Below are positions 2,637-17,747 of a stretch of DNA of 64,000 nt, one piece after another. Position numbers and translations under genes: made by a program. The notes beneath the pieces were generated by a model. It saw nothing but the letters and a program-made list of their open reading frames with translations, was not told the DNA's origin and did not search any database. The stretch comes from Gemmatimonadales bacterium (GTDB taxonomy: Bacteria; Gemmatimonadota; Glassbacteria; GWA2-58-10). Within the stretch, counting starts at the first letter, position 1. Each line of letters begins with the position of its first letter. The stretch spans positions 1-64,000 of the forward strand of contig JAJRTS010000078.1 in the NCBI GenBank assembly GCA_024278175.1, in the 5' to 3' direction.

Positions 2637-3245
2637 ATGACGAAACTCACACTCGATGGCCGGGAAATGGATTCCGGCACATATGACGGCCAGACGTTGA
2701 GCCAGTTGATCGACGGGGTCGAGAAGAAACTGGCGCCCAAAAGGGTAATCGTCTCGATGCTGCTCAACGGCCAGCCGCTCGACCGCGGCGAGGAGCGTGA
2801 CAGTGCGGCGCTTCCCGTCGGGAAACTCGACAGCCTGGTGATCAACACCCAGCAGGTCGACGCGCTGGCGGTTAATACACTGCACACGCTGGTCGATTAC
2901 TTCCCCCAGCTCAAAACCCTGGTGCTCGAAACAATCCGGCTGTTGCAGGGCGAGGACGAGAGCGAGGGACACCTCTCGCTCGGCTCGCTGATCGAGGGCC
3001 TGCAGATGGTGGCCGGGGCATGGCACGGAATCTCGCACTTTCTCGCAATCGAGGGGCAGCGGCCACAGGACGTGATGCCCACGATGAGCGGATTCAACGG
3101 GCTGCTTAAAGACCTGCTCCAGGCCCAGCAGAATGTGGATACCGTCCAGATCTGCGACCTGTTGGAATTTGAGCTGATACCTATCCTGGAAAAATGGCTG
3201 GCCCATGCATCCAGGCTTATCGAGGAAACGGAAAACCAGGGATAA
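2637..3245 (+). CDS. Orphan protein of the fliD-maf-fliS cluster
   Basis: 202 residues, not recognised. The ATG has a GGGGGA run about 8 nt upstream. No signal peptide or membrane segment; the protein is acidic. The N-terminal third looks like beta strands (TKLTLDGREMDSG), and the rest is predicted amphipathic helices with a hydrophobic stretch around residues 90-110 (LVDYFPQLKTLVLETIRLL). It lies between the cap gene and the flagellin glycosyltransferase, on the same strand with no terminator, so a cytoplasmic role in filament export or flagellin modification is plausible but is only inferred from position. A FliT-like export chaperone is an alternative, but no FliT motif was seen. Confidence 0.7.
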   Translation: MTKLTLDGREMDSGTYDGQTLSQLIDGVEKKLAPKRVIVSMLLNGQPLDRGEERDSAALPVGKLDSLVINTQQVDALAVNTLHTLVDYFPQLKTLVLETIRLLQGEDESEGHLSLGSLIEGLQMVAGAWHGISHFLAIEGQRPQDVMPTMSGFNGLLKDLLQAQQNVDTVQICDLLEFELIPILEKWLAHASRLIEETENQG

Positions 3246-3250
3246 GAGCC

Positions 3251-5200
3251 TTGAGCGACGCCCAGACAAACAATCCCGATATTTACCGGCGCAACATTCA
3301 GGCGCTCTCCCAGGTCGACCTCGAGCTGGCGCGCCGGGTGGCGGCCACGCACCCGGCGGCGGCGGAAGTTATCCAGACCAGGGCCGGAGTGCCCTCCGTG
3401 CGGCTGGCCAACGCGGGCGGCAAACCCTGCACGCTGGTCAGCACTATCGACCCGCTCGCAGAGGCCGAGCGACTGGCCGGAAACCAGCTTGGAGCTAGCG
3501 CCAATGCCTGCCTGATCTATGGGTTCGCGCTGGGTTACCACGTGGAAAGCGTACTCAAACGCCTGCCGCCCGGCGGGCGCGTGCTGATTGTCGATCCACA
3601 GATCTCGATCTTCCGCCTGGCGATGGAAACCCGCGACCTGACCGGCCTGCTGACCAACCCCGATGTATTCTGGTCCATCGGCGAAAAGGAATACGATGTG
3701 CCCGGACGTTTCGGCAATATCTTTCGCGTGGTCTCGCTCGAAGGGGTGGCAATCGTGGCCCACAACCCCACGGTGAAGCTATGCGGCGAGTATTTCAACG
3801 AGCTTGACCAGCATTGCCGCAAGTGGCTGGTGGCTGTCGGCGGCAATTTCCTGACCAACGTCAGTGCCGTGCGCACCTACCTCTCCAACACTCTGGACAA
3901 TATCCAGTCTATCGTGGACCACCCGCCCGTGCGCAGCCTGTTCGGACGCTTCAGGGGCGTCCCGGCGGTTGTGGTCAGCGCTGGCCCCTCGCTGGATCGC
4001 AATATCAGCTTGCTGCGCGTGCTGGAAAACCACGCCGTGCTGATTTGCGTGGACACCTCCCTGGGACCGCTCCACCGGGCCGGAGTCCGGCCCCACCTGG
4101 TGCTCGCGGGAGACTCCAGCGAGGCCAATTTCCGCCATCTGCAAGGACTTGGACACACCGGTGCGGCGCTGGTGGCCGAGCCGATGACCCATCCGAGAAT
4201 CGTCGAGGAGTTCGATGGCGACAAGTTTATCATGAGCTTCAACGAAGTCCTGATGAAAGAGCTCAGCGGGATCCTCGGCGACTTCGGCGTCGTCAAGGCC
4301 TGGGGCTCCATCTCCACCGGCGCGTTCGACCTGGCCCGCAAGCTGGGCTGCGACCCGATAGTGTTCGCCGGCCAGGACCTTGCTTTCTCCGACGGCCGTT
4401 ACTATGCCCACGGAACTTACCAGGAAAAACGCTGGCTGCGGGAGCTTACCTATCCCAGGAGCCTGCAGGACATGCACAAGTGGCGGATGTCGAACGAGAA
4501 CGCCCTCGATGTCACCGACCTGTTCGGCAAGCCGCAACGGACCAGCAAGCAACTCGAGGCCTACAGGCATTATTTCGAGCGGGAAATAGCCGAAACCACC
4601 GCCAGGGTAATCAACGCCAGCGAGGGCGGAGCCGGGTTCACAGGCGTGGAAAACCTGCCCCTGGAACACGTGCTCTGGAAATACGCCCCGCTCCGCCGCG
4701 ATATCCGGCAGATAATCCGCAGGTCCCGGAAAGAGCGCAGCCAGGGAGAAATCAACCGCCTGTTCGAATACCTGCGCGAAATCACCGTTGAACTGGAGGG
4801 CCTGCAACAAGCCTGCAACAGCGGTTTCGAGTCCGCCCGGGTGCTGCATCAGGGCAAGGCCGATAATCCTCAGGCCGAATACGCGGCCCTGGAGGAAATT
4901 TATGAGCAGGTGTACGCTTACGACAAAGTCCGTGAGATGCTGGAAAACGCCAACCAGGGTGGAGTGCTTACCTACCAGCGCGGCGCGGAAAAGCTCAAGG
5001 GCAGGGAACTGGACAACGAGCTGATCGCCGAGGCCGGCAAGCTCTACGGCGCGTTTTTTATCAGTTGCTTCCAGACCGCCGGGATTCTGCGTAAAAAATT
5101 CGAGCAGGCCAGCCTGGCTCTGGGGCACAGTCTTGCCGGGGACAGTGCCGACACCACCGGCGAAAACAGCTCCGTGGACTACGGGCTGAATATCGCCTGA
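3251..5200 (+). CDS. maf: Maf/DUF115-type flagellin glycosyltransferase (motility accessory factor)
   Basis: About 649 residues. Belongs to the 6-hydroxymethylpterin pyrophosphokinase MptE-like (DUF115) family. Members include the Campylobacter, Helicobacter and Aeromonas Maf proteins, which transfer nonulosonic acids to flagellin Ser/Thr. The central nucleotide-sugar-like fold is recognisable from VVSAGPSLDRNISLL, the CVDTSLGPL strand-loop, HLVLAGDSSEANF and the GSISTGAFDLARKLGC / FAGQDLAFSDGRYYA stretch. I chose TTG at 3251 (SDAQTNNPD...) because an AGGGAT stretch precedes it and it starts 5 nt after the upstream stop. An upstream in-frame start at 3194 would overlap the previous gene by 52 nt. 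Its place directly before fliS and the sugar operon supports flagellin as acceptor and the nonulosonate made by the downstream genes as donor (inference). Confidence 0.85.
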   Translation: MSDAQTNNPDIYRRNIQALSQVDLELARRVAATHPAAAEVIQTRAGVPSVRLANAGGKPCTLVSTIDPLAEAERLAGNQLGASANACLIYGFALGYHVESVLKRLPPGGRVLIVDPQISIFRLAMETRDLTGLLTNPDVFWSIGEKEYDVPGRFGNIFRVVSLEGVAIVAHNPTVKLCGEYFNELDQHCRKWLVAVGGNFLTNVSAVRTYLSNTLDNIQSIVDHPPVRSLFGRFRGVPAVVVSAGPSLDRNISLLRVLENHAVLICVDTSLGPLHRAGVRPHLVLAGDSSEANFRHLQGLGHTGAALVAEPMTHPRIVEEFDGDKFIMSFNEVLMKELSGILGDFGVVKAWGSISTGAFDLARKLGCDPIVFAGQDLAFSDGRYYAHGTYQEKRWLRELTYPRSLQDMHKWRMSNENALDVTDLFGKPQRTSKQLEAYRHYFEREIAETTARVINASEGGAGFTGVENLPLEHVLWKYAPLRRDIRQIIRRSRKERSQGEINRLFEYLREITVELEGLQQACNSGFESARVLHQGKADNPQAEYAALEEIYEQVYAYDKVREMLENANQGGVLTYQRGAEKLKGRELDNELIAEAGKLYGAFFISCFQTAGILRKKFEQASLALGHSLAGDSADTTGENSSVDYGLNIA

Positions 5201-5284
5201 ATTTAATATTGTGATGGATTTTCCGATAATAATATGAGAGCCTGCCCGCTAAGGGTGGAATTGAAAAGGAATTCCGGAGTCCCA

Positions 5285-5737
5285 ATGCAGAAAAATCCGG
5301 GTGTTCGCGATTACAGATCGATGCAGATCCTCAGCTCCAGGCCGGAGAGGCTGATCCTGCTCCTTTACGACGGGGCGATCAAGTTTATCCGTCAGGGACA
5401 GAAGTCCCTGGAAAACGAGCAGATGGAGGAAGCCCACAACAATCTGATCCGGGCGCAGAATATTCTGGTGGAGCTGATGGGCTCGCTGAATTTCGACAAG
5501 GGCGGAGAAATAGCATCGAACCTGTTCCGGATCTACGAGTTCATGCACCACACCCTGGTACAGGCCAACGTTAAAAAAGAACCGGAACCGCTGGGGCGCA
5601 TCTGCGAGCAGCTCAAACACCTGCGCGAAAGCTGGTTCACGGCGCTGAAAAACGAAGAGAGCGGCAAGGAGCCCGGTAAAAATCCCGACAATCCCGCCGG
5701 CGGAGACCAGACTAAGAGCATCAGCATCAAGGGCTGA
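5285..5737 (+). CDS. fliS: FliS flagellin export chaperone
   Basis: 150 residues. Cytoplasmic chaperone that binds the C-terminus of flagellin before export. Diagnostic FliS features are the Tyr-rich start (NPGVRDYRSMQILSSRPERL), the LILLLYDGAIKFIRQG helix, and the later LFRIYEFMHHTLVQAN helix. The start at 5285 (MQKNPG) is preferred over 5234 because GGAG lies 7 nt upstream and the extra 17 residues do not look like FliS. The C-terminal tail (KEPGKNPDNPAGGDQ) is longer and more polar than usual. It follows the Maf gene, giving the common fliD-maf-fliS arrangement. Confidence 0.92.
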   Translation: MQKNPGVRDYRSMQILSSRPERLILLLYDGAIKFIRQGQKSLENEQMEEAHNNLIRAQNILVELMGSLNFDKGGEIASNLFRIYEFMHHTLVQANVKKEPEPLGRICEQLKHLRESWFTALKNEESGKEPGKNPDNPAGGDQTKSISIKG

Positions 5738-5780
5738 TAGTCTGCCCGTTTAACGCCATTATTCATTCAGTGAGTGAAGA

Positions 5781-6410
5781 ATGATCGGAGAGTTCGACCT
5801 GTTGCAACCCGGCAAGCTGATCAGGGAGCTGGTGATGATGCTCGAGATCGAGCGCGATCCGCTGATCAGCCAGAGCGCTTTGGCCGCCAAGGCCGGCCTC
5901 GTGCCGTCGATGGCCAACACCTACATCCGCAAGATGGCCGAGCGGGGGCTGGTGGAAAAACACGGCAGCAGCCGGCGCAATACCAGTTACCATCTCACCG
6001 ACTCCGGCCGGAGCCGTCGCGCCGAGTTGACCAGGCGCTACAGTATCGAAACCGTGCGGCTCTACAAATACGCCAAGGGCGAGTTCAGACGGCTGCTGGG
6101 CGCCAGGGCCGGTGAACTGCAACGCAAACGGATCGTGGTCTACGGCTCGGCCGAAACCGGCGAGCTCTCCTGCCAGACGCTGATCGAAATGGGCTGCCTG
6201 CTGGTCGGAGTGGTTGACAACGACCCCGCCCGGCAGGGCCGGCTGCTCTTCGGACACACTGTCCTGAGCCCCGAGACCCTGGAATCGCTGGACCCTGAAG
6301 TGGTACTGGTCGGCTCGCTGGGCCATGCCGCCGAGATTGAAAGCAGGCTGGCACAACTGGCCGGCCGCGGTGTGGAAATCATTACTATCGAGATGGGCGC
6401 TACTGTCTGA
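5781..6410 (+). CDS. Winged-helix regulator with C-terminal Rossmann-like domain
   Basis: 209 residues. Residues 10-85 form a MarR/EPS-associated winged helix: ISQSALAAKAGLVPSMANTY is the recognition-helix region, followed by a wing (VEKHGSSRRNTSYHLT). From about residue 113 a Rossmann-type beta-alpha fold starts (RIVVYGSAETGELSCQTLIE, then VGVVDNDPARQGR). It resembles the N-terminal domain of PglD-like or CoA/NAD-binding sensor proteins. Known relatives sit at polysaccharide gene clusters, often as local regulators; the C-terminal domain could sense a nucleotide sugar or redox cofactor. It is the first gene of the tight sugar operon after fliS (10 nt before the next start), so it may control the operon; that role is inferred. 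Confidence 0.75.
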   Translation: MIGEFDLLQPGKLIRELVMMLEIERDPLISQSALAAKAGLVPSMANTYIRKMAERGLVEKHGSSRRNTSYHLTDSGRSRRAELTRRYSIETVRLYKYAKGEFRRLLGARAGELQRKRIVVYGSAETGELSCQTLIEMGCLLVGVVDNDPARQGRLLFGHTVLSPETLESLDPEVVLVGSLGHAAEIESRLAQLAGRGVEIITIEMGATV

Positions 6411-6419
6411 GGGAGTAAA

Positions 6420-8750
6420 ATGGGTAAAAAAAACCGCAACAGTAAATCCCTGCACGGCGCGTCGCCCGCTTTCCCGGAGTTCGCGGACTCGCGGCAGGCG
6501 CTTGCCTGGTGGTGCGGGAAGCTCCGTGTGGGCTTTCCAGCGCCGGGAGCGGCTGAACACCTCGCCGCGCTGGCCGATGCGGCCGGCGACGAAACGCTGC
6601 GGCAAAAATTCGATGTGCTCGCGCGGATCGCGGGCCGGGCTGTCGAACAGGCGGGCCGGCTCATCGATGTCCCGGGGGCGCTGAGCGCTTTCGCCACCGA
6701 ACGTGAGAACGGCAGGCTGTTTATCGCCTCCGCCACCGGCGGAATAACCTGTATCGAGCGCAACAGCGGAAAATCTCTCTGGAAAATCGAGCCGGAAAAG
6801 GCCTTCCAGGTGGGCGGACTGGCCACCTTCAAGGGCACGCTCTTCTACACCGACAGTTGGCGCGACAGGCTTTACGCCGTCTGCTGCCAAACAGGCCGGC
6901 AGCGCTGGAGCGTGGACAAGGCGGCCAACGACTCTCCCCTGCTCTGCCCGGCCGGGATTACGCTCGCCCGGCGCGGCGACGGCCATCATCTGCTGCTCTG
7001 CGACAGCGGCAACCACCGCGTCTGCTCATTCTCTCTTGACGGAGACCCGCTGAGCACGCAGGGCCGTCGCGGCCTGGAGCGGGAGCGGATCGCTCACATC
7101 CATTCCGCGCCGGAGGGCACGGCCGTACCCCCGTATTTTGAATATCCATCCGGGATCACAGTGGCCACGGAGCATGACGGCGAAGAAACCGTCTTTGTCT
7201 GGGACAGTGGCAACGGGCGGCTGGTGCTGCTTAGCAGCGAGCTGACTCCTGTCCACACAGTCCGGATCGTACCGGGCGGAGAAATTGTCTCCAGGCTGGC
7301 CGGTCAGGTGGCCGTGCTGGACGGGCCAGCCGGAGCGGTGATCGTGGTTATCGACGATGCACAGCGCACGCTCTCTGTTCGCGAACCGGACGGCGAGACG
7401 CTGCTTAGTATCGACTTGACCGGGCTGATGAAGTCTCCGTGGCGCAAACTGGAGCTTTTCCGGCTGGATTGCGGCGGATGTTCGGATGACGGGATCCTGC
7501 TGCTCTCAAGCAGCGGCGGGGTATGGAGAATACCATTGGAAACCCTGAACACCGCGCGCCTGAGTGCTGATCTGCTGAAGCTCTACCCGGAAGATAGCCG
7601 GATAGTGCTGGCCCACGCCTGGCTTGCCAACGGCAATCTCGGCAGCGCCTGGCGGGATGTCTCTCCCGTACTGGACCATAACGCTCTGGTTCGCGTCCTG
7701 TTCCGCGATTGCGACCTGCTCAGCGACGAGTTCTCGCTGACGGTAGAGCGTCTGGAAGCACTTGTCCATTCTCTGCGCAGGCAATCGATGGACGATGACG
7801 CCTCGGCGCTTGAACAGGCGCTGCTCTCCCGGCTGGAGGAATTTCGCACGGCCGCTTTGGATGAACTGCTGCGCCTCTCACGGCCCTCGCCCGGAGAAAT
7901 CGAGCGCTGGTCGGACGCCCACGCCGAGGTGGACATGGAATTCTTCCAGAGCCGGGGCCGCAAATCCAGCGCCGAGCTGGCCCGGGACGACGATCTTGAA
8001 CAGGTTCGCGAGCTGCGGCCCTCCATCCGCCGGCAGGCCTGGCAGCTTCGCGCTCTGCACCGTCTGCTGGCCTCCCGCCGCAACTCCGGCTGGATTGCCG
8101 GGATCGCCGCCGGGCTGCTCGATGAGCTCGGAACCAATCTCGATAAACGGGTGGGCGTAATCGCCGTGGCGGCAGCGGCCCTTCAGTACGAACGGGACCC
8201 CCAGCGCGTGGCGCGCGAGGAAATTCAGGCTGCCCACGCCGTCCTGCTCAGCGTCTCGATGCTCGAAGATGTTGCTGTTGAGCTGGCCGCTGAATTCGTT
8301 CGACTTACTCGCGAACTACCGGAGGTATTAGACTCCGGCATGACAGAAAAGGTAAAAACTCTGATCGGCAAGGCCGGTGGACTGGAATGCAGGGAAATCC
8401 TCTGCGATGTTGCAGGTAAACTTCCCGATCAAACCGCTCCGGCCGGGCAGCTTCAACACAGCTCGCTCTTTGAACAGGGAGTCTCCGAACAACTGCAAAT
8501 GCTGGTGGAAAATATGGTTTCCTATCTGGCCAAAGTTCAAAACAATGGTAGTTCCGGCGGCCAGTTCGGACGCGTACTGGGACGTCAGCGCAACCTGTTC
8601 GCCCTCAAGGCCTCCGTGCTGTCCAACTTCCGCCGGCCCGGCGAGGAATGCCTCGCCCTGCTGGAGCAGGCCCGCACGGTGGCGGGAGATGCCTGGCAGG
8701 CAAACAGACAGCTTAGACTCACAGAGCCGCAAGTGGAGAAAAAGCGATGA
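6420..8750 (+). CDS. Orphan cytoplasmic beta-propeller (PQQ/NHL-like) plus helical-domain protein
   Basis: 776 residues, no signal peptide, well-placed GGGAG ribosome site. Roughly residues 95-385 contain propeller-like blades: GRLFIASATGGITCIERNSG, GTLFYTDSWRDRLYAVCCQT, and two NHL-like repeats (LLCDSGNHRVCSFSLDG and VFVWDSGNGRLVLLSSE). Residues about 385-776 are nearly all helical and Glu/Arg/Leu rich, without a family I recognise. The stop overlaps the next ATG (ATGA at 8747-8750), so it is translationally coupled to the nucleotidyltransferase/CDP-alcohol transferase. A scaffold or sensor for the glycan machinery is a guess from context; no catalytic motif was seen. Confidence 0.72.
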   Translation: MGKKNRNSKSLHGASPAFPEFADSRQALAWWCGKLRVGFPAPGAAEHLAALADAAGDETLRQKFDVLARIAGRAVEQAGRLIDVPGALSAFATERENGRLFIASATGGITCIERNSGKSLWKIEPEKAFQVGGLATFKGTLFYTDSWRDRLYAVCCQTGRQRWSVDKAANDSPLLCPAGITLARRGDGHHLLLCDSGNHRVCSFSLDGDPLSTQGRRGLERERIAHIHSAPEGTAVPPYFEYPSGITVATEHDGEETVFVWDSGNGRLVLLSSELTPVHTVRIVPGGEIVSRLAGQVAVLDGPAGAVIVVIDDAQRTLSVREPDGETLLSIDLTGLMKSPWRKLELFRLDCGGCSDDGILLLSSSGGVWRIPLETLNTARLSADLLKLYPEDSRIVLAHAWLANGNLGSAWRDVSPVLDHNALVRVLFRDCDLLSDEFSLTVERLEALVHSLRRQSMDDDASALEQALLSRLEEFRTAALDELLRLSRPSPGEIERWSDAHAEVDMEFFQSRGRKSSAELARDDDLEQVRELRPSIRRQAWQLRALHRLLASRRNSGWIAGIAAGLLDELGTNLDKRVGVIAVAAAALQYERDPQRVAREEIQAAHAVLLSVSMLEDVAVELAAEFVRLTRELPEVLDSGMTEKVKTLIGKAGGLECREILCDVAGKLPDQTAPAGQLQHSSLFEQGVSEQLQMLVENMVSYLAKVQNNGSSGGQFGRVLGRQRNLFALKASVLSNFRRPGEECLALLEQARTVAGDAWQANRQLRLTEPQVEKKR

Positions 8751-10195
8751 AAGCACTCGTGATAGCTGCGGGCCGGGGATCGGGCTTTAACGGCCACGGT
8801 CCCCGGAGCCACAAAACACTCAATCCGGTATGGGGAGTCAGCGTAATCGAGCGCATTCTGGCCGCGTTCCCCCCACTGGAAGAGTTGGTGGTGGTCACCG
8901 GCTACGAGCATGAACAACTGGAGGAAGCGCTTACCGGCATGTTTAAAAACCGGGTGGCGCTCAGGTTCGTCCACAACCGCAGTTGGGAGCGCGGCAACGG
9001 CCTCAGCGTGCTGGCCGCCCGCGAGGCGCTCTCCGGCGAGGACTCGTTCCTGCTCAGCATGAGCGACCATGTTTTCGACCGGGCTCTTGTGGAAAAACTG
9101 ACCGTGACCTCGCCCCCGCATCAGGGCTGTCTGCTGGCTGTGGATCGCGATCTTCCCGGAGTGTTCGACCTGGGCGACGCCACCAGGGTCAGGCTCGGCG
9201 GCGACGATACAATCGAACAGATCGGCAAGGGACTCGCACGTTTCGACGCCGTCGACACCGGCGTGTTCTTCTGCACTCCGGCCCTGTTCGATGCCCTGGC
9301 CGAGGCCGTCTCGCGTGGCGGGGAGAGCCTCTCGGACGGGATCAGCGTACTGTGCCGGCGAGGAACGATGTCCGCCCGCGATGTTACCGGCTGCCTCTGG
9401 CAGGACGTGGACGACATGCGCAGTATGGAAGAGACGCGGCGCCGCCTGTGGCAACGGGTGGCCAAGCCCCGCGACGGAGTGGTCAGCCGGGTGCTGAACC
9501 GTAAGATTAGCGGTGCGCTCACCCGCCTGATCGCCCCGCTGCCCGTGCAGCCCAACCACGTCACCGTTTTCAACCTTCTGCTGGCGGGCTGCGCCGGTGT
9601 GCTGATGGCTAGCGGGCACCTGCTCGCGGGCGCGCTGGCCGCCCAGTTGTACTCGATAATCGATGGCGTGGACGGCGAGCTGGCCCGGCTCAAGCTGCGG
9701 GGAAGCTGGTTCGGCGCCTGGCTGGACAACCTCACCGACCGCATCTGCGACTGGATGATAATCTCCGGCGCCGCCCTGAGCGTTGCCGGCGGCGGCTCCT
9801 CGGCGATGGCATGGATTCTGCTTTCTTTAGCTTTGACCAGCAATGTCGCCTATCGCTCAGGCATGGACTCCCTGCTGGTTTCAGGGTCGTTGCGCACCCT
9901 GGCGGCAGGCGATGGGATGCTCCGCAGGGCGGAAAAATGGTTCGGTGAGCGGGAAATGGTGTTCGGGATGACCCATGACGTGTACCTGTTCATACTGGCC
10001 CTGGGAGTGGCGGCCGGGTTTCCGCTGGCCACCCTGGCGATCCTGATAGTGCTGGAAACTCTCTGGTGGCTGGCGAAGACGACCCAGGCCCGCAGAGCTC
10101 TGCCCAGCGCCACTTACGCCGAATACCTTCAGGCGCGTAAACTGGAGAAGTTCAATGAATCTCGAAAACAGATCGCACAACTCGCCGCTCACTGA
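8747..10195 (+). CDS. Bifunctional sugar/polyol-phosphate nucleotidyltransferase - CDP-alcohol phosphatidyltransferase (IPCT-DIPPS-like)
   Basis: 482 residues with two domains. Residues 1-225 are an NTP-transferase fold: AAGRGSGF near residue 7, HKTLNPV, LLSMSDHVFD for the metal-binding Asp, and ARFDAVDTGVFFC. Residues about 255-470 are a membrane CDP-alcohol phosphotransferase with every residue of the signature: D306-x2-D309-G310-x2-A313-R314-x8-G323-x3-D327-x3-D331. The same two-domain order occurs in CTP:inositol-1-phosphate cytidylyltransferase / di-myo-inositol-phosphate phosphate synthase. That enzyme activates a polyol phosphate with CTP and condenses it with an alcohol at the membrane. 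Here the gene sits inside a flagellar glycan operon, so the product may be a phosphodiester-linked polyol, phospholipid or sugar rather than an osmolyte. The substrate is not determinable from sequence. Confidence 0.82.
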   Translation: MKALVIAAGRGSGFNGHGPRSHKTLNPVWGVSVIERILAAFPPLEELVVVTGYEHEQLEEALTGMFKNRVALRFVHNRSWERGNGLSVLAAREALSGEDSFLLSMSDHVFDRALVEKLTVTSPPHQGCLLAVDRDLPGVFDLGDATRVRLGGDDTIEQIGKGLARFDAVDTGVFFCTPALFDALAEAVSRGGESLSDGISVLCRRGTMSARDVTGCLWQDVDDMRSMEETRRRLWQRVAKPRDGVVSRVLNRKISGALTRLIAPLPVQPNHVTVFNLLLAGCAGVLMASGHLLAGALAAQLYSIIDGVDGELARLKLRGSWFGAWLDNLTDRICDWMIISGAALSVAGGGSSAMAWILLSLALTSNVAYRSGMDSLLVSGSLRTLAAGDGMLRRAEKWFGEREMVFGMTHDVYLFILALGVAAGFPLATLAILIVLETLWWLAKTTQARRALPSATYAEYLQARKLEKFNESRKQIAQLAAH

Positions 10196-10808
10196 GTTGA
10201 TCGGCATCCTTCGCCAACGCAGGGGCGTGCGCCCGATTATAGCGCGTTTCGCCGCTGCGGGGATCGTGGTCCCGGTGGGCGCGATGTTCCTCTATACGCT
10301 GGGCCTGCTGCCGGTACAGGTGCTGCTGGCCGTTGTGCTCTCGGGCTGGCTCTGCTGGTCATCGGGACGCATGGAGCTCCAGCGGGATTCGGCCGCCGAG
10401 GCCGCCCGGCGCTCGTCGCTGGTGGCCACCCACACCCTGGACGCGGCGCTGCTGGTGGGCGCGGGCCTGTTCTGCCATCTGGTCTGGGAACTGTCCTCGG
10501 CTGTGATGGCCCTGGCCGTGGCCGCGGCGATGACAAATTACCTGGCATACTACAGCGGAATCGCTTTTCTCAAGTCCGTTCCCGCCCCGGTGCGCGCGGC
10601 CAGCGCCCGCTCGATGGTGGAACTGGACCACGCGTTCCTGGCAACCGGTAGCATCTGGGGCGCTGAACGCGAGATCGTGCTCGGCCTCTCCGCGCTCGGC
10701 CTGCTGGCGGGGCAGCCGGAAATCGGCCTGGCCGCCGCCGTGGCCGGAGGCAACTGCTACTGGGTATACAAGTCCGCTCATTTCTGGCTCAAGGCGGGTC
10801 TGCAATGA
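10155..10808 (+). CDS. Probable inactive paralogue of CDP-alcohol phosphatidyltransferase (membrane protein)
   Basis: 217 residues with about five or six hydrophobic segments. The ATG at 10155 lies 41 nt inside the upstream gene and has its own GGAGAAG site. Its second half lines up with the C-terminal domain of the preceding protein: NYLAYYSGIAFL against NVAYRSGMDSLL, and WGAEREIVLGLSALGLLAG against FGEREMVFGM...LALGVAAG. In the first half, the place of the DxxDGxxAR...GxxxDxxxD metal site reads SSGRMELQRDSAAEAARR...VATHTLD, so almost all catalytic Asp residues are missing. A pseudoenzyme partner or membrane subunit of the transferase is the best reading; an unrelated membrane protein is less likely. 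Confidence 0.68.
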   Translation: MNLENRSHNSPLTELIGILRQRRGVRPIIARFAAAGIVVPVGAMFLYTLGLLPVQVLLAVVLSGWLCWSSGRMELQRDSAAEAARRSSLVATHTLDAALLVGAGLFCHLVWELSSAVMALAVAAAMTNYLAYYSGIAFLKSVPAPVRAASARSMVELDHAFLATGSIWGAEREIVLGLSALGLLAGQPEIGLAAAVAGGNCYWVYKSAHFWLKAGLQ

Positions 10809-11884
10809 AGAAAAACGCCTACGCTAACGTGCTGGCGCTTAACCTGGGCGGAATCGGCGACTTTGTCTCCACCATGCCGGTCCTGGCGGCGCTCAAGGCT
10901 GCGGGAAGTTATATCACCTCGGTGGTCTGGCCCGCGCAGGAAGAGCTGGCCCGCCTTGCGCCGCCAGTGGACAGGATTGTGCCGCTGCCCAAAGAGTGGG
11001 AAAATGACCCCGAGCTGAGCCTGTTCGGCCGGGCGCTGGCCGGTAAATTCGGCTACGACCTGGTGCTTGATTTCGCGTTCATGCCTAGAGCTGGCGTGCT
11101 GACCCGCGAGGCGCACGGCAGGCGCACAGTGGGCTTCGCGCTGGAGGGCGAAAGCTATCGCTGGTACACGGATATTTTCCCGAACGTCGCGGGCGAGCCG
11201 CGCCTGGAGCGCAACCTCCGCCTGATCGAGCAACTGGGTCTGGCCCGTCCCGCGCGACCTGATTTCAGCGTCAAGCTGCCGGTCGGGACCGAGCGCAGGG
11301 TGACCTCGCTGCTCGAATCCCACGGGCTCGGCCCCCACGCACAGCCGATCGCAGTCCACCCCGGCAGCGGCAACAGCGTGCGTAACTGGCCCGCCGGGCG
11401 GTTCGCTGAACTGGCCGACCGTCTTTGCGCTCACACGGGCCGCCCGGTGCTGCTGCTGGGGGGCAGGGATACAACCTACGACGGCAACGACGAGACAGCT
11501 TTGACGGGCCGGGTCCGGAGCCTGATGCGCTCGCCGGCAATCGATCTGGGAGGCAGGCTGGGCACGGCGGAACTGCTGGCCCTGCTGAGGCGTTGCAGTT
11601 TGTTCGTGGGCAACAACAGCGGCCCGGCTCATCTGGCGGCCACGCTGGCGGGCGCGCCTGTGCTGCTGGCCTGGGCCCCGCGCAACGAGAAAATCTGGCG
11701 GCCCTGGGGCAATGAGGTGGTGCTGGCCAGCGCTGGAGCGGACTGCGCCGACAACTGCCTGCTCAACCGTTGCGCTAAAATCAGGGAATGCGTGGAGCTG
11801 ATTAGCGTAGAACAGATGTTCGGCAACTATCTGGCCACTATCGGCGCACCGGGGAAAATCGCAGCCGCGGGAGGCAGCCGGTGA
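10805..11884 (+). CDS. GT9 (heptosyltransferase-family) glycosyltransferase
   Basis: 359 residues. ADP-heptose:LPS heptosyltransferase fold: N-terminal LNLGGIGDFVSTMPVLAAL is the acceptor-side motif. In the C-terminal domain, IAVHPGSGNSVRNWPAGRFA and later LFVGNNSGPAHLAATLAGAP form the ADP-sugar site. The start overlaps the previous stop as ATGA. A Cys-rich loop near the C-terminus (CADNCLLNRCAKIREC) is typical of the family. In this operon it probably adds a sugar to the flagellar glycan or a lipid-linked intermediate; LPS core heptosylation is possible, but no other LPS gene is near. Confidence 0.85.
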   Translation: MKKNAYANVLALNLGGIGDFVSTMPVLAALKAAGSYITSVVWPAQEELARLAPPVDRIVPLPKEWENDPELSLFGRALAGKFGYDLVLDFAFMPRAGVLTREAHGRRTVGFALEGESYRWYTDIFPNVAGEPRLERNLRLIEQLGLARPARPDFSVKLPVGTERRVTSLLESHGLGPHAQPIAVHPGSGNSVRNWPAGRFAELADRLCAHTGRPVLLLGGRDTTYDGNDETALTGRVRSLMRSPAIDLGGRLGTAELLALLRRCSLFVGNNSGPAHLAATLAGAPVLLAWAPRNEKIWRPWGNEVVLASAGADCADNCLLNRCAKIRECVELISVEQMFGNYLATIGAPGKIAAAGGSR

Positions 11885-12357
11885 AAATCGAGCTGGCCAG
11901 CGGAGAACGCCCTTACGACGGCTACCTTCACTGCGACGAGCGGCTGCTGCCGGCCACCGGGATGGTTTGCCGGGTGGAGCGTCTGCCGCTGGCCACCGGC
12001 TCGGTGGAAACGCTACTGGCCAGCCACATTATCGAGCACTTTTCCTACCTCACTGTGGACCAGGTACTGGCCGAGTGGTACAGGGTGCTCAGGCCCGGCG
12101 GCGACATTTTGATCATCACCCCCAATTTCGGTTACGTGGCCCACGGGTACGCCGCCGGCCGGATGGACCATAAAGAGGCCCGCGACCGCATGTTCGGCGG
12201 GCAGGACTACGAGGGCAACTATCATTATAACATGTACGACAGCGAGTCGATGCAGACGGCTCTGGAAGCGACAGGTTTCAGAAACGTCCGGGACGTGACT
12301 TCCGATTACGAGAGTCGCGAGGTCCCGATGAGTATTTACTTCAACGCGGAGAAATGA
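11881..12357 (+). CDS. SAM-dependent methyltransferase (type 11 fold, short)
   Basis: 158 residues. Class I methyltransferase half-fold: the start (KIELASGERPYDGYLHCD) resembles the LNLGSG...WINVD opening of predicted SAM-dependent methyltransferases in glycan clusters. ETLLASHIIEHFSY holds the post-motif HxxEH-like segment, and EWYRVLRPGGDILIITPN is motif III. It is shorter than full enzymes (about 200-250 residues), and the glycine-rich motif I is poorly conserved. GTG start, with a 4-nt GTGA overlap with the GT9 gene and an ATGA overlap with the next gene. Likely methylates a sugar of the flagellar glycan; substrate unknown. Confidence 0.78.
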   Translation: MKIELASGERPYDGYLHCDERLLPATGMVCRVERLPLATGSVETLLASHIIEHFSYLTVDQVLAEWYRVLRPGGDILIITPNFGYVAHGYAAGRMDHKEARDRMFGGQDYEGNYHYNMYDSESMQTALEATGFRNVRDVTSDYESREVPMSIYFNAEK

Positions 12358-13112
12358 CCATGGATAAGGTTATTGCCGTACTCCAGGCACGGATGCACAG
12401 TGAGCGGCTGCCGGGCAAGATCCTGGCCGACCTGGCTGGCAAGCCCCTGCTTGAGCACGTTATCGAGCGCCTTCAGGCCACACCCGGAGTAGACCGGGTT
12501 GTGCTGGCGGTTCCCCGTTCTGAAATGGCTTACCTGGCAACGCTGGCCGGGCGAACCGGCGCGGAAATGGTGGGCGGGGCGTTCAACGACGTGCTGGGAC
12601 GCTATTACCAGGCTGCCCGGCGCTACCCCGCCCCGTTCATGATCCGCGCCACCGGCGACAATCCACTGATCGACACCACCATGCTGGGCCGCTGCGTCGA
12701 GGAATGCCTCAGCGGCTGCTGGGACATGGTGGGCGTGCGGGAGATGCCGCTGGGTACCGGGGCAGAGGTCTTCCCGGCCGGCCTGCTGGACTACCTGCAT
12801 CACTTCGGCCGCCGCAGGCACCATCGCGAACACGTAACCACCCTGCTCTACGAGCACGAGGACGAGTTCCGGGTCCGCCGCCTCGATCCGCCGCGCAAAT
12901 TGCGTGCGCCGGGGTTCCGCCTGACTGTCGATACCGAGGAAGATCTTGAACTGATGCGGCTGATCTACGACAGGCTCTACGTGCCGGGACAAATCGTGGA
13001 CCTGGCCGATGCGATCCGTCTGCTGCGGGAGCAGCCCGAGCTGGCCGGGATCAACAGCCACATCTGTCAGCGCGACTGGCGCAAGGAAAGCATGGCCGCG
13101 TCAGTGGCTTAA
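12354..13112 (+). CDS. spsF: SpsF-type cytidylyltransferase (CMP-sugar synthesis)
   Basis: 252 residues. Member of the SpsF/3-deoxy-manno-octulosonate cytidylyltransferase-like family. VIAVLQARMHSERLPGKIL at the N-terminus is the nucleotide-binding loop, followed by ADLAGKPLLEHVIERL. ATGDNPLIDTTMLGRCVEEC contains the metal-binding Asp region, and RLTVDTEEDLELMRLIY is the family's C-terminal motif. SpsF proteins are regularly encoded beside PseG- and NeuB-like genes, where they activate a nonulosonic acid with CTP. With the next genes it would supply hydrolase, synthase and CMP-transfer steps. ATG at 12354 overlaps the previous stop; an ATG at 12360 is an alternative. Confidence 0.85.
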   Translation: MTMDKVIAVLQARMHSERLPGKILADLAGKPLLEHVIERLQATPGVDRVVLAVPRSEMAYLATLAGRTGAEMVGGAFNDVLGRYYQAARRYPAPFMIRATGDNPLIDTTMLGRCVEECLSGCWDMVGVREMPLGTGAEVFPAGLLDYLHHFGRRRHHREHVTTLLYEHEDEFRVRRLDPPRKLRAPGFRLTVDTEEDLELMRLIYDRLYVPGQIVDLADAIRLLREQPELAGINSHICQRDWRKESMAASVA

Positions 13113-13133
13113 CCTGGCAAAGGCGTAAGATAG

Positions 13134-14210
13134 TTGAAGGAAACGAAGCAAAATATCCTGTTCCACTGCGACGCCGACCGCTCGCGCGGGATGGGACACC
13201 TGTTCCGCTGCCGGATGCTGTACGGACGGTTGGCCGGACCCGGCAGCTCTCTGGCCGTAAAACCGGACAGCGCGGCCCGTGGCCTGCTGGAATCGTCCCG
13301 GCTGCCGTGGCGGGAAATCTCCCCCCCGTCGGCCGGGGGGGAGCTGGGCCTTGAACTGGCTGAAATCGCCGGGGAAACCGGTGCGCGGGTCGTACTGCTG
13401 GACCGCAAGGACAACTCGCGGGAACTGGTGCTGACGCTGAGGCGGCAGGGTTTGCTGGTGGTCGCTCTGGAAGATACCGGGCCGGGGCGGCTGGAAGCCG
13501 ACATCCTGGTTGACCCGCACGTTCAGCCCGGCAGCGCGGAAGCCGCCTGTGATGGCCGCGCCTTATGTTGTTTCGGTCCAGGCTGGGCGCTGATAGATCC
13601 GTGCTACGTGGCCGCCCGCGCCAATGGGGCAGCCGACAGACACGCAGACGATACCGGACCGCTCAGGGTGGCGGTCAGCCTGGGGGGCAGCGATCCGGCG
13701 GGGCTTACCCGGCGGGTGCTGGCGGCGCTGGCGAAAGTGGACGAAAAACTTGAGATCGAACTCGTAGCCGGGCCGGGTGCCGATACCGGCCAAGTGCCTG
13801 GCACGCTCCGCCACGACATCCGCATTCATCGCGGCCTGGACAACCTGGCAAAGCTGCTGGCCACCTGCTCGCTGGCGTTCGTTTCCGGCGGGATTACGAT
13901 GTTCGAAACGCTGTGCGTGGGCGTGGCCACGGTGGTGGTTCCCCAGCACGAGGAGCAGTACACGAATGCCTCCCGGCTGGCCAGCCGGGGCGCTCTGCTG
14001 GTGGTCCCCCCCCCGGCGGAAAAGAGTTCCGTAATTGGCCTCATCCTGGCCGCACGGGAAATAGCCGGCAACGAAGCTTTGCGCCGCAAGCTTGTCAGCA
14101 CCGGCGCGGCGCTGGTGGACGGGCGAGGTGTGCAGCGGCTGGAGAGCCGGTTGCACTCCCTGCTCGGGGACATGACCGACAAGGATCAACCGGCCGCTAA
14201 CGCGGTTTGA
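13134..14210 (+). CDS. pseG: PseG-like UDP-sugar hydrolase (nonulosonic acid pathway)
   Basis: 358 residues from a TTG start. Family of UDP-2,4-diacetamido-2,4,6-trideoxy-altropyranose hydrolase, a GT-B fold related to MurG. The N-terminal RGMGHLFRCRML has the catalytic-type His22 after the Gly-x-Gly loop. The C-terminal domain has RVAVSLGGSDPAGLTRRVL and LAFVSGGITMFETLCVGVA followed by VVVPQHEEQYTNA. It removes UDP from the dideoxy sugar before condensation with phosphoenolpyruvate. It lies 21 nt after the cytidylyltransferase. Pse against legionaminic-type specificity cannot be decided; the early PseB/PseC/PseH steps are not in this window. Confidence 0.83.
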   Translation: MKETKQNILFHCDADRSRGMGHLFRCRMLYGRLAGPGSSLAVKPDSAARGLLESSRLPWREISPPSAGGELGLELAEIAGETGARVVLLDRKDNSRELVLTLRRQGLLVVALEDTGPGRLEADILVDPHVQPGSAEAACDGRALCCFGPGWALIDPCYVAARANGAADRHADDTGPLRVAVSLGGSDPAGLTRRVLAALAKVDEKLEIELVAGPGADTGQVPGTLRHDIRIHRGLDNLAKLLATCSLAFVSGGITMFETLCVGVATVVVPQHEEQYTNASRLASRGALLVVPPPAEKSSVIGLILAAREIAGNEALRRKLVSTGAALVDGRGVQRLESRLHSLLGDMTDKDQPAANAV

Positions 14211-14236
14211 ACTGAAATGTAGAGAGGAGTCCCCGC

Positions 14237-15490
14237 TTGGACGACAGACGCGGCGTTATTATCGTTGGAGCCGGGATCATGCAGATTCCGGTAATAGAGG
14301 CGGCCAAAAGAATGGGCCTGCGCACGGTGGTTACCGACTACAACCGTAACGCGCCTGGTTTCGCGATGGCCGATGTGGGCCTGGAGGTCTCGACCCGCAA
14401 CATAGATTTCTCCGTGCTGAGCGCGCGGCGGATCGCCGAGCACGTTCCTATCGACGGGGTGCTGACAGTTGGCACCGACGCCAGCAGGACTGTGAGCGCC
14501 ATGGCCGCCGCGCTCGAGTTGCCCGGTATCCGCTACGACGCGGCCGAGCGGGCGACCAACAAGGTCAAGATGCGCCAGTGCTTCCGGGACAACGGCGTGC
14601 CCTCGCCCGATTTCGAGTATGTATGGACACGCCCGGAAGCCCGCGACGCGGTAAAACGCCTGGGCCTGCCCTGCGTGATCAAGCCCGCCGACAACATGGG
14701 CGCGCGCGGAGTGAAACTGCTCACCGAACGCTCGCAGGTGGAGGACGCATTTACCGAGGCGCGCCGGGCCAGCGTGAGCGGGATGATCGTGGTGGAAGAA
14801 TACATGGAGGGCCCGGAGCTCTCAATCGACGCGCTGGTCTGGGACGGGAATATCGAGATCGTGGGCGTGGGCGACAGGATTATCAGCGGCGCGCCGTACT
14901 TTATCGAGCTGGGCCACACGATGCCGACCGCCATGGACCCCGAGGTGGTGACCCGGGCGGTGGAAGTGATGAAACAGGGAATCAGGGCGCTGGGGATCGA
15001 TGTGGGCGCGGCCAAGGGCGATATCAAACTCACCCCGGAAGGCCCCAAGATCGGCGAGCTGGCGGCCCGGCTCTCGGGCGGCTACATGAGCGGGTTCACC
15101 TACCCGTTGGCCACCGGCGTGGACCTGATGAGCGCGATCCTGCGCGTTTCGATGGGCCAGGACCCCGGAGACCTGACGCCGAAGTGGAACCGCGTGGCGG
15201 CCGAGCGCGGAATTATCCCCCGCCCCGGTGTAATAACCGCTGTGGAGGGGCTGGATGAAGCGCGTTCCTTGCCAGGTGTGGAAAATATATTTACCATGTA
15301 CGAGGTGGGAGACACGTTCCGTAAGCCCACCAGCAACATGGGAAAATTCGGTAACCTGATCGCCGTGGCCGACGACCGCAAGGCGCTGCAAAAACTCTGC
15401 GCCCGGGCGCTGACCACGATCAGGATCCACACCACGCAGCCGGACGAGTCGCGGAGCGAACCGGCGCTGGCAAAAGCCAAGAGCGCATGA
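14237..15490 (+). CDS. ATP-grasp carboxylate-amine/thiol ligase of the glycan operon
   Basis: 417 residues. The TTG start at 14237 has an excellent GAGAGGAG site 7 nt upstream. The PurK/CarB-like ATP-grasp layout is clear: N-terminal Rossmann-like part (RGVIIVGAGIMQIPVIEAAK), an ATP-binding lysine strand (CVIKPADNMGARGVKLL), the EEYMEGPELSIDALVWDG strand, and the metal-binding IGELAARLSGGYMSGF. Such enzymes join a carboxylate to an amine through an acyl phosphate. The position between the PseG-like and NeuB-like genes suggests it decorates the nonulosonic acid or its precursor, for example by adding an amino acid. That is inference from context. Confidence 0.8.
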   Translation: MDDRRGVIIVGAGIMQIPVIEAAKRMGLRTVVTDYNRNAPGFAMADVGLEVSTRNIDFSVLSARRIAEHVPIDGVLTVGTDASRTVSAMAAALELPGIRYDAAERATNKVKMRQCFRDNGVPSPDFEYVWTRPEARDAVKRLGLPCVIKPADNMGARGVKLLTERSQVEDAFTEARRASVSGMIVVEEYMEGPELSIDALVWDGNIEIVGVGDRIISGAPYFIELGHTMPTAMDPEVVTRAVEVMKQGIRALGIDVGAAKGDIKLTPEGPKIGELAARLSGGYMSGFTYPLATGVDLMSAILRVSMGQDPGDLTPKWNRVAAERGIIPRPGVITAVEGLDEARSLPGVENIFTMYEVGDTFRKPTSNMGKFGNLIAVADDRKALQKLCARALTTIRIHTTQPDESRSEPALAKAKSA

Positions 15491-15491
15491 A

Positions 15492-16544
15492 ATGAATGAA
15501 GTCCGCATAGGCGATGAACTCAGCGGGTTTGTCAGGGTGGGAGAGCGCCGCCCGCCGGCGGTGATGGCCGAGGTGGGGATCAACCACGACGGCAAGCTGG
15601 AGCGCGCGCTTGAGCTGGTCGATCTGGCCGCCGACTCCGGGGCCGACCTGATCAAGTTCCAGTATATCGACCCCTCGGCGATGGTCCATCGCGGCCTGAT
15701 GCCCGAGCTGTTCGGACTCTACGGCCGCTACGCCCTGTCCCTGGACGATTTCCGGGCGATAGTGGAGCGTTGCCATCAGCGCCGGATGCCGTTTGTCTGC
15801 ACGGTGTTCGACTCCGGCGGCGCGGCGCGGATGGCGGAGCTGGGCGTGGCCGCGTTCAAGGTGGCCTCCTGCGACATGACTCACCTTCCCCTGCTGGGGG
15901 CGCTGGCGTCCTGGCAGCTGCCGGTGATTCTCTCAACCGGCCTGGCCGATATCGCCGAGGTGCGCCGCAGCGTGCGCACGCTCAAGCGGGGGGGCTGCAA
16001 GACTCCGATCCTGCTGCATTGCACCAGTCGCTACCCCGCTCCCGCCGAATCGCTCAACCTGAGAGCGATGGGCCATCTGAGTAAAAAACTGCGCCTGCCC
16101 ACCGGCTTCTCCGACCACAGCGAGGGAATCCTGGCCCCGGCCCTGGCCGCCGCCCTGGGCGCGGTGATGGTGGAGAAACATTTCACCTATGACCCGGCAG
16201 CCGACGGCCCCGATCACGCACTGAGCCTGGGGCCGACGCAGTTTGCCGAAATGGTGCGTCAACTGCGCCTGGCCGGACAGATGCGCGGCGACGGCCGCAA
16301 GAAACCGGCGGCGGTGGAGCGCCGGGAGCGCACCGTGGGCCGCAGGGGGTTTTATCTTGCCCGCGATGTAACGCAGGGCCAGCGGGTGCGCCTGGACGAC
16401 TTGAGCGCGCTCAAACCCTGGACCGCGTTGGGCCCGTTCGATATCGCCAGACTGCGCGGCAAGGTTTACGCCCGCGACATTGCCGGCGGCGAGGCGCTTA
16501 CTCCCGAAGACATAGCACCAATCGATGCTCCCGCCGAAGACTGA
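15492..16544 (+). CDS. neuB: NeuB/PseI-family nonulosonic acid synthase with SAF domain
   Basis: 350 residues. Condenses phosphoenolpyruvate with a 6-carbon amino sugar to give a nonulosonic acid. TIM-barrel motifs: AEVGINHDGKLERALELVD, DLIKFQYIDP, FKVASCDMTHLPLL, LSTGLADIAEVRRSV, LHCTSRYPAP, GFSDHSEG and VEKHFTYDPAADGPDH. Residues about 280-345 are the antifreeze-like SAF domain (RRGFYLARDVTQGQRVRLDD). Starts 1 nt after the ATP-grasp stop, so it is part of the same transcript. Which acid it makes (pseudaminic, legionaminic or sialic type) is not resolved from motifs alone. Confidence 0.9.
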   Translation: MNEVRIGDELSGFVRVGERRPPAVMAEVGINHDGKLERALELVDLAADSGADLIKFQYIDPSAMVHRGLMPELFGLYGRYALSLDDFRAIVERCHQRRMPFVCTVFDSGGAARMAELGVAAFKVASCDMTHLPLLGALASWQLPVILSTGLADIAEVRRSVRTLKRGGCKTPILLHCTSRYPAPAESLNLRAMGHLSKKLRLPTGFSDHSEGILAPALAAALGAVMVEKHFTYDPAADGPDHALSLGPTQFAEMVRQLRLAGQMRGDGRKKPAAVERRERTVGRRGFYLARDVTQGQRVRLDDLSALKPWTALGPFDIARLRGKVYARDIAGGEALTPEDIAPIDAPAED

Positions 16545-16685
16545 ACGTGTTGAAAAAACGCTCGCCATGGGAATATGAGCTGTCAAGGGTCAGCCAAAGG
16601 CTGATTTACATGCCCTTGACAGCGACAATAAACATAAATTTAATTTCAGGGCCGTTGAATGTTTTTTCAACGGCCCCTCTGAACC
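16545..16685 (+). promoter_or_regulatory. Two consecutive RNA-hairpin elements between neuB and the Gfo/Idh gene
   Basis: First structure: arms GCTGTCAAGGG (16579-16589) and its perfect complement CCCTTGACAGC (16613-16623), enclosing a small hairpin TCAGCC-AAA-GGCTGA (16590-16604). Second structure: GGGCCGTTGAA (16649-16659) and TTCAACGGCCC (16666-16676) with a 6-nt loop, ending 9 nt before the next ATG. Neither has a convincing + strand U-tract, so they may be an attenuator, an RNA-processing site or a weak terminator. Confidence 0.6.
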
Positions 16686-17747
16686 ATGCACACTAAAACA
16701 AAACTAACCGCCGCGCTGGTGGGCTGCGGCCGAATCGGCGCTCTGCTGGAGCAGGACCCGCTGCGCGGCAAACCCTGCACCCACGCCGGTGCGATCACCG
16801 CGCTGGGCAACGTGAAGCTCGTGGCCGCGGCGGACCCGGACCCGGAGCGGGCCACCGAATTCGGCCGGGCTTTCGGCGTGAACGCTCTCTATCCTGACCA
16901 CGTTTCCCTGCTCGCTAACCACGTTGTCGATATCCTGGCGGTGGCCGCGCCTACCGATACCCATTGCCGGATCGTCTGCGACGCCGCTGCCAGCGGCCGC
17001 GTGCGGGGGATTTACTGCGAGAAACCGATCAGCCGCACGCTGGAGGAGGCCGACCGGATGATCGAGGCCTGCGAGAGCGCGGGAGTTGCGCTGCTGATCG
17101 GTCACGAGCGACGGTTCGCCAGCCATTTCAGGCTGGCCAGAGAGCTGGTGGCCGACGGCACGCTGGGCGATGTCCGCACCGTGATCGGCCAGGCGCTGGG
17201 CGGCGATCCGGGCAAGCTGCCCCGCGAGCTGGCCGGCGGCGGCCCCCTGTTTCACGACGGCACCCACCTGACCGACCTGCTGGGATTTTTTGCAGGTTCG
17301 GCTGAATGGGTTATCGGAAACACTCAGCGCAGCCACGGACCGCGTAATATCGAGCACACGGCGGTGGCGATGGTGGGGTTCCGCTCCGGGGCGCTGGGGT
17401 TTATCGAGGGCGGCGGGCGGCGAAAATATTTCGCGTTCGACCTGGAAATACAGGGCGAGAGGGGTATCCTGCGCCTCGGCAACAGCCCGCCCAGCCTTCG
17501 GCTGAGTGCCCCCAGCGGGCGCTGGAGCGGTTTCAGCGAGCTGAGAGAAACGGATTTCCCGGCTTACGAACCAAACAACGGATTCGTGGCGGCGTATGCG
17601 GCCCTGTGCGAGGATATCACCACGGGAACGCCAAACGGCAGCAGCGGCCATGACGGCCGCGCCGCGCTGGAGCTGATCCTGGCCGTGTATGAGAGTTCCT
17701 CCCGTGGCGGCAGGCGGGTCAGGCTGAAGCGGCAAAGCCAACCGTAG
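16686..17747 (+). CDS. Gfo/Idh/MocA-family NAD(P)-dependent sugar dehydrogenase
   Basis: 353 residues. N-terminal Rossmann domain (AALVGCGRIGALLEQDPL, then AAADPDPERATEFGRAFGVN) and the family signature GIYCEKPISRTLEEAD with the EKP lysine. The C-terminal domain contains GGGPLFHDGTHLTDLLGFF, where the HDGTH histidine is the usual catalytic or substrate-binding position. Oxidises or epimerises sugars or sugar nucleotides. It follows the nonulosonate genes but is separated by two hairpins, so it may belong to the same pathway (as in legionaminic-acid clusters) or be independently expressed. Confidence 0.82.
   Translation: MHTKTKLTAALVGCGRIGALLEQDPLRGKPCTHAGAITALGNVKLVAAADPDPERATEFGRAFGVNALYPDHVSLLANHVVDILAVAAPTDTHCRIVCDAAASGRVRGIYCEKPISRTLEEADRMIEACESAGVALLIGHERRFASHFRLARELVADGTLGDVRTVIGQALGGDPGKLPRELAGGGPLFHDGTHLTDLLGFFAGSAEWVIGNTQRSHGPRNIEHTAVAMVGFRSGALGFIEGGGRRKYFAFDLEIQGERGILRLGNSPPSLRLSAPSGRWSGFSELRETDFPAYEPNNGFVAAYAALCEDITTGTPNGSSGHDGRAALELILAVYESSSRGGRRVRLKRQSQP

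Follow-up and report, generated by a model that had tools for sequence, protein, structure and literature searches.

A putative flagellin nonulosonic acid glycosylation operon with ATP-grasp and CDP-alcohol genes in a family of Gemmatimonadota

In this work, we analyzed a window of 64 kb, the first part of contig C67 in the draft genome (4.18 Mb; G000) of a Gemmatimonadales bacterium, and found a gene island that is very probably a lineage-specific, Maf-type operon for flagellin glycosylation with a nonulosonic acid (NulO). The island lies beside flagellar genes at positions 3194 (or 3251) to 17747 and consists of maf, fliS, and eleven further genes, all on the forward strand; gene identities were derived from the translations of open reading frames (ORFs) and from Pfam and NCBIfam profile scans. 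An earlier note on this DNA had named the genes of this block and proposed a Maf-dependent, NulO-making flagellar island. All of the named genes are present, and the gene families together with the flagellar setting support the proposal. The best explanation of the entire block, to which we give a probability of about 0.5, is a flagellin NulO operon with acylation and a CDP-alcohol decoration.

The Maf flagellin glycosyltransferase (3251..5200; MptE-like PF01973, 1.2e-37) is the sole PF01973 match in the genome. Its ORF opens at 3194, and homology to proteins of other genera begins only at about residues 29-32, so the TTG at 3251 is plausibly the likelier start. The gene for the flagellin chaperone FliS (5234..5737; PF02561, 3.4e-36) and fliD both adjoin maf, and the head of the island (fliD-orf202-maf-fliS) is conserved along with it. 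Four flagellin genes (about 540-560 amino acids) stand in a row at G000:C7:71882-80621, unlinked to the island, and a flaG-like gene accompanies them. The family-conserved orf202 (2637..3245, forward strand; 41-68% identity in the sister genomes G001, G002, and G004; no Pfam match), located between fliD and maf, is a candidate accessory factor for Maf, possibly of the GlfM type (PMC13317340), which we offer as a lead only.

For NulO synthesis, the island encodes an SpsF-like cytidylyltransferase (12354..13112; CTP_transf_3 PF02348, 2.7e-22; PDB 6oew, 2.7e-22) that is a predicted CMP-NulO synthetase, a PseG/SpsG-like UDP-sugar hydrolase (13134..14210; TIGR03590, 1.2e-26, below cut-off), and a NeuB/SpsE-like NulO synthase (15492..16544; PF03102, 8.6e-68) whose closest PDB match is SpsE (1vli, 1.6e-48). 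Judged by these matches, the three proteins form an Sps-like trio. The earlier note had suggested looking for pseB-, pseC-, and pseH-like genes elsewhere in the genome, and the first two were found. A PseC-like aminotransferase gene (TIGR03588, 319 bits) adjoins flgK-flgL-fliW in four genomes, and a PseB-like dehydratase (398 bits) is encoded at G000:C105. No PseH was found in the six family genomes: five of them gave only weak matches of GNAT level, and the other gave no match. A search for LegB gave a score above cut-off in G003 only, and the island contains neither SpsC nor SpsD (the aminotransferase is unlinked, and no SpsD-like gene was seen in the block). A second NulO locus, of the legionaminate type, is located at G000:C15 (L071, 9617-18027) and contains genes for LegC, NeuC, a formyltransferase, a PIG-L/BshB-type deacetylase, NeuB, a NeuD-like protein, a CBS plus nucleotidyltransferase (PtmE-like) protein, and a PseF-like cytidylyltransferase. 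Because this locus has its own LegC, NeuC, NeuB, NeuD-like, and PseF-like genes, the NulO enzymes of the island are extra to the legionaminate-type set.

The ATP-grasp carboxylate-amine ligase (14237..15490; ATP-grasp_4 and LAL_C2 domains) has relatives at 34-38% identity, and its family is found beside amino-sugar genes. The Solidesulfovibrio relative adjoins neuB-pseF-pseB-pseC; that of genome G056 lies beside genes for a thiamine pyrophosphate (TPP) enzyme and a reductase (identified from translations), as in Shewanella sfm; and those of Enterococcus hirae and Parabacteroides belong to capsule loci with a dehydratase, a DegT aminotransferase, and a sugar transferase. In the Shewanella sfm operon, an ATP-grasp gene (SfmE) is found near NulO genes and its loss alters flagellin mass (PMC3765264), while the ATP-grasp half of Neisseria PglB2 yields a glyceramido in place of an acetamido sugar (PMC11130364). 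Based on the contexts of the relatives and these two precedents, N-acylation is the likeliest role, and the ligase probably acylates either the NulO or its 4-amino precursor. The amide decoration envisaged in the earlier note is well supported by context (the SfmE, PglB2, Solidesulfovibrio, E. hirae, and Parabacteroides cases), and it is not new. The island also hints at a general rule that ATP-grasp ligases can replace N-acetyltransferases in 4-amino-sugar and nonulosonate pathways.

For this one step, a tentative alternative is that the ligase does not replace PseH and instead couples an acid to the NulO once its synthesis is complete. SfmE may act in this way, as the 274-Da NulO core of Shewanella loses an acetyl group in mass spectrometry and bears a further moiety of 236-264 Da (PMC3765264). 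Against this stand the lack of PseH in the six genomes and of any N-acyltransferase other than the ligase among the island Pfam matches. As a separate observation, the E. hirae (L127) and Parabacteroides (L126) capsule loci are located on plasmids and combine the ATP-grasp, DegT aminotransferase, and sugar transferase genes with no obvious PglD-type acetyltransferase; PglB2-like N-acylation in these loci, and hence a more widespread occurrence, is possible.

The island also encodes a fusion of a CTP:alcohol-phosphate cytidylyltransferase and a class I CDP-alcohol phosphotransferase (CDP-AP) (8747..10195; NTP_transf_3 and CDP-OH_P_transf). Over residues 1-363 it aligns to the di-inositol-phosphate (DIPP) synthase of Archaeoglobus (PDB 4mnd, 3e-39), and it is homologous to inositol-1-phosphate cytidylyltransferase/di-inositol-phosphate synthase (IPCT/DIPPS). 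The CDP catalytic motif is intact (DGVDGELAR...G...D...D, residues 306-331). In the acceptor region (T409-H410-D411-x-Y413 in this fusion), close to transmembrane (TM) helix 5, RDxR is common to the phylum's standard enzymes; all six island orthologues have HDxY in its place and carry an insertion ending in (R)xMVFG. Bacterial phosphatidylinositol-phosphate (PIP) synthase holds the acceptor phosphate by two arginines, one of them in an RxxR motif, and CDP-APs with six TM helices use soluble acceptors (PMC4634129). By analogy with this RxxR, RDxR is likely the acceptor phosphate site. Against the DIPPS model NF041135, which was built for Thermococcales, the fusion scores 196.5 bits (profile 1-351 of 419), below the 580-bit equivalog cut-off, as does the standard paralogue of G001 (284 bits, matching 1-415). 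This paralogue (L024, 10972-12294) lies near glucosyl-3-phosphoglycerate synthase, and another standard DIPPS-like paralogue in G005 (L074/L026) lies beside inositol-1-phosphate synthase; both are likely in compatible-solute loci. Inositol-1-phosphate synthase was found in four of the six family genomes, including G000, and was not detected in G001 (99% complete) and G002. Inositol-1-phosphate was considered as the obvious substrate of the fusion and is weakened by the HDxY motif and by the missing synthase in G001. With its acceptor motif changed and a standard paralogue standing apart in sister genomes, the fusion appears to be an osmolyte enzyme that was re-purposed for a different acceptor.

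Directly downstream, the twin (10155..10808) aligns with the C-terminal half of the CDP domain of the fusion (hhalign E 2e-6) and lacks the active-site motif DxxDGxxAR...GxxxDxxxD, which agrees with its description as inactive-looking in the earlier note. It has no Pfam or NCBIfam match and was found only in the family (six of 298 genomes). Its AlphaFold model is a multi-helix bundle (pLDDT 77), for which a fold search returned nothing significant (PIP synthase structures at TM-scores of 0.37-0.42, E ~2-3), so the homology rests on the profile alignment. We consider the twin a real, degenerate homologue of the fusion by this alignment, and probably its non-catalytic partner. Upstream of the fusion, a protein of 776 amino acids (6420..8750; PF13360, 2.3e-8) contains a beta-propeller at about residues 76-371 followed by an alpha-helical C-terminal half (AlphaFold pLDDT 77). 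The propeller matches NHL domains in Foldseek (E 9e-10, TM-score normalized by target ~0.7), no signal peptide was evident by eye, and the protein is possibly a scaffold.

Genes for a GT9 (heptosyltransferase-like) glycosyltransferase (10805..11884; PF01075, 2e-20) and a small S-adenosylmethionine-dependent methyltransferase (11881..12357; PF08241, 2.7e-8) connect the twin with spsF. Overlaps of 4 nt occur at the propeller/fusion, twin/GT9, GT9/methyltransferase, and methyltransferase/spsF junctions, and one of 41 nt at the fusion/twin junction. Because these five junctions overlap, the genes from the propeller through the fusion, twin, GT9, and methyltransferase to spsF are predicted to be one translationally coupled stretch. 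The many ATGA/GTGA overlaps reported previously thus exist at four junctions and no more. The pseG-like, ATP-grasp, and neuB genes are spaced by 1-26 nt after spsF; gaps at the non-overlapping junctions of the island are 1-43 nt, apart from 141 nt ahead of the last gene. This gene, gfo, encodes an IolG-like Gfo/Idh/MocA oxidoreductase with the EKP motif (16686..17747). Between fliS and the propeller gene lies a probable regulator, a fusion of winged-helix (MarR_EPS-like) and Rossmann/PglD_N-like domains (5781..6410). Promoter and terminator scans gave results near chance level.

Conservation of the island extends over five genera, all in a single family, and fusion orthologues (60-72% identity) were found in all five of the other sampled family genomes, each inside this island. 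The full order is unbroken in G001 (L019 and L078) and spread over two contigs in G004 (L023 and L116), and partial contigs cover fliD to the twin in G002, the fusion to gfo in G003, and the propeller gene to neuB in G005. Identity to G001 ranges from 85% (ligase), 82% (methyltransferase), 79% (SpsF), 78% (Gfo), 77% (NeuB), and 72% (fusion) down to 54% (PseG-like) and 46% (propeller). A foreign origin was considered and rejected, as the base composition is fairly even (GC 0.64 vs. 0.60, GC and GC3 fairly uniform) and relatives carry the same island.

Outside the family, fusion-like proteins or domains (~34-43% identity, at the threshold used) occur in 17 other genomes among 395 of the phylum; maf, neuB, spsF, and flagellar genes were all missing from the DNA fetched around them, where many contigs are short. 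The co-occurrence of CDP-alcohol genes with flagellar loci, which the earlier note had set as a test, gives a split result: it holds for the orthologues in all six family genomes and was not seen for these homologues. A plasmid search for the fusion returned one weak match to the N-terminal domain, and a scan of genome contigs returned two N-domain relatives only, without NulO genes nearby. In G105 and G087 (L095 and L096), the cytidylyltransferase and CDP-AP domains occur as separate neighboring stretches on opposite strands, that is, as an unfused pair.

In the pathway that we propose, a UDP-4-keto sugar would be supplied by the PseB-like enzyme (G000:C105) or another dehydratase and aminated by the PseC-like enzyme encoded beside flgK-flgL-fliW. 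The island ligase would then acylate the free amine with a hydroxy or amino acid, replacing the acetylation by PseH, after which the PseG-like protein would release UDP, NeuB would condense the sugar with phosphoenolpyruvate, and SpsF would form CMP-NulO. Maf would load the NulO onto flagellins ahead of FliS-assisted export, with the Gfo/Idh/MocA protein, the methyltransferase, and GT9 tailoring it. At the inner membrane face, the fusion may make a CDP-alcohol and move the alcohol phosphate onto a small soluble acceptor, which is unlikely to be inositol phosphate. The product would be a decoration, or a building block, linked by a phosphodiester, and the twin would probably be a non-catalytic partner. 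All substrates in this scheme, the linkage between the CDP product and the glycan, and the partner role of the twin are predictions.

A phosphodiester decoration of the flagellin NulO by the CDP pair, as proposed in the earlier note, makes chemical sense, and systems with unrelated transferases provide a precedent for the function; the proposal draws on gene coupling and synteny only, and from the coupling we put it at roughly one chance in three. The most specific version, in which an osmolyte-type class I CDP-AP that lost its acceptor phosphate site acts with a degenerate partner to give a phosphodiester-linked alcohol to an N-acylated flagellin NulO, is doubtful. The block could instead be an ordinary Maf-NulO island with amide tailoring, with the fusion and twin serving a compatible solute (inositol-type) or lipid and sharing only the operon. 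The homology to IPCT/DIPPS, the wider homologues away from flagellar genes, and the inositol-1-phosphate synthase in four of six genomes all fit this explanation, which we nevertheless consider rather unlikely, given that the standard paralogue stands apart in G001 and G005, the island enzyme has lost RDxR, G001 has the island enzyme and no detected inositol-1-phosphate synthase, and overlapping junctions couple the fusion to SpsF. Still more improbable is a lipid acceptor, with GT9, the methyltransferase, and the NulO building a surface glycolipid or polysaccharide next to unrelated flagellar genes. This view is favored by the membrane location of class I CDP-APs, by GT9, a family typical of lipopolysaccharide assembly, and by the second NulO locus (L071), which would serve a surface polysaccharide. 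However, six-TM CDP-APs use soluble acceptors (PMC4634129), the island Pfam matches include no flippase, polymerase, or ligase for surface polysaccharide, and Maf and FliS head an island with which fliD-orf202-maf-fliS is conserved.

Several observations weigh against the flagellin NulO operon with acylation and CDP-alcohol decoration. The island NeuB and PseG-like proteins score below the NCBIfam equivalog cut-offs. The PseC-like gene was not found in G005 and has only a 38% paralogue in G003, and the PseB-like gene is missing in G001 and G004 (both ~99% complete), which makes the assignment of the dehydratase tentative. The ATP-grasp gene was not found in G002, where the contig ends in the twin. 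The likeness of the ligase to SfmE and PglB2 is one of domain and context, and the ligase could act after NulO formation. The CDP pair is tied to the glycan by position only. Other blocks in the family are highly syntenic as well (e.g., purL/MIPS/PseB is conserved), so the synteny of the island gives support without being decisive and proves less than gene coupling.

Compared with the Maf-NulO systems of Campylobacter, Aeromonas, Shewanella, and Clostridium, the island likewise has maf by fliS/fliD, a NulO synthase, a hydrolase, and a CMP-activating enzyme, but it has no PseH, its aminotransferase and dehydratase are unlinked, and a CDP-alcohol pair, a propeller, and GT9 are added. Shewanella oneidensis sfmABCDE (PMC3765264) shares a NeuB-like enzyme, a methyltransferase, and an ATP-grasp ligase near maf, whereas the island lacks the TPP enzyme and reductase and instead carries CDP-alcohol enzymes along with the complete SpsE-F-G-like trio. 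The Bacillus subtilis sps legionaminic acid pathway (PMC7439481) shares the SpsE-, SpsF-, and SpsG-like proteins; the island differs in its flagellar setting, its ATP-grasp ligase, and the absence of SpsC/SpsD from the block. Neisseria PglB2 (PMC11130364) also uses ATP-grasp N-acylation instead of an acetyltransferase, but there the ATP-grasp part is joined to a phosphoglycosyltransferase and the pathway is lipid-linked. IPCT/DIPPS (Archaeoglobus 4mnd, NF041135) has the two-domain architecture and CDP catalytic motif of the fusion, which differs in HDxY for RDxR, the acceptor-region insertion, a low model score, another context, and the adjoining twin. For Clostridioides difficile type A and Pseudomonas aeruginosa b-type flagellin, it has been proposed that an alcohol phosphate is activated with CTP and then moved onto a sugar of the flagellin (PMC10714395, PMC11833859). 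These systems also have a methyltransferase, but they use a TagF-like transferase and a GlcNAc or deoxyhexose core where the island has a class I CDP-AP and NulO; neither a TagF-like phosphotransferase nor a PSP-like domain is among the island Pfam matches. The earlier statement that no described pathway has this set is correct for the exact set and overlooks these two systems and Shewanella sfm.

Most components of the island have known relatives. A literature search found no description of CDP-alcohol enzymes combined with Maf, and the fusion with its degenerate partner is undescribed in such a pathway. To our knowledge, no class I CDP-AP has previously been used in protein glycosylation. 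If the proposed function is true, membrane CDP-alcohol chemistry, so far associated with lipids and osmolytes, would be joined to flagellin glycosylation, and an osmolyte enzyme would have been re-tooled through few acceptor-site changes.

Further observations concern neighboring and flagellar genes. The fliD gene at 1-2551 of the window looks frameshifted (frame change near 1060-1106) and is intact in G001, suggesting either an assembly error or a real break. FlgL, at 1056 amino acids (5070-8240 of L069, from G000:C63), is far above the usual length and is kept in four genomes. Just past the NulO block, a secreted-looking protein with BNR/Asp-box repeats is encoded at 18156-19262, with 75% identity in G001, and a different gene lies downstream of gfo in G004.

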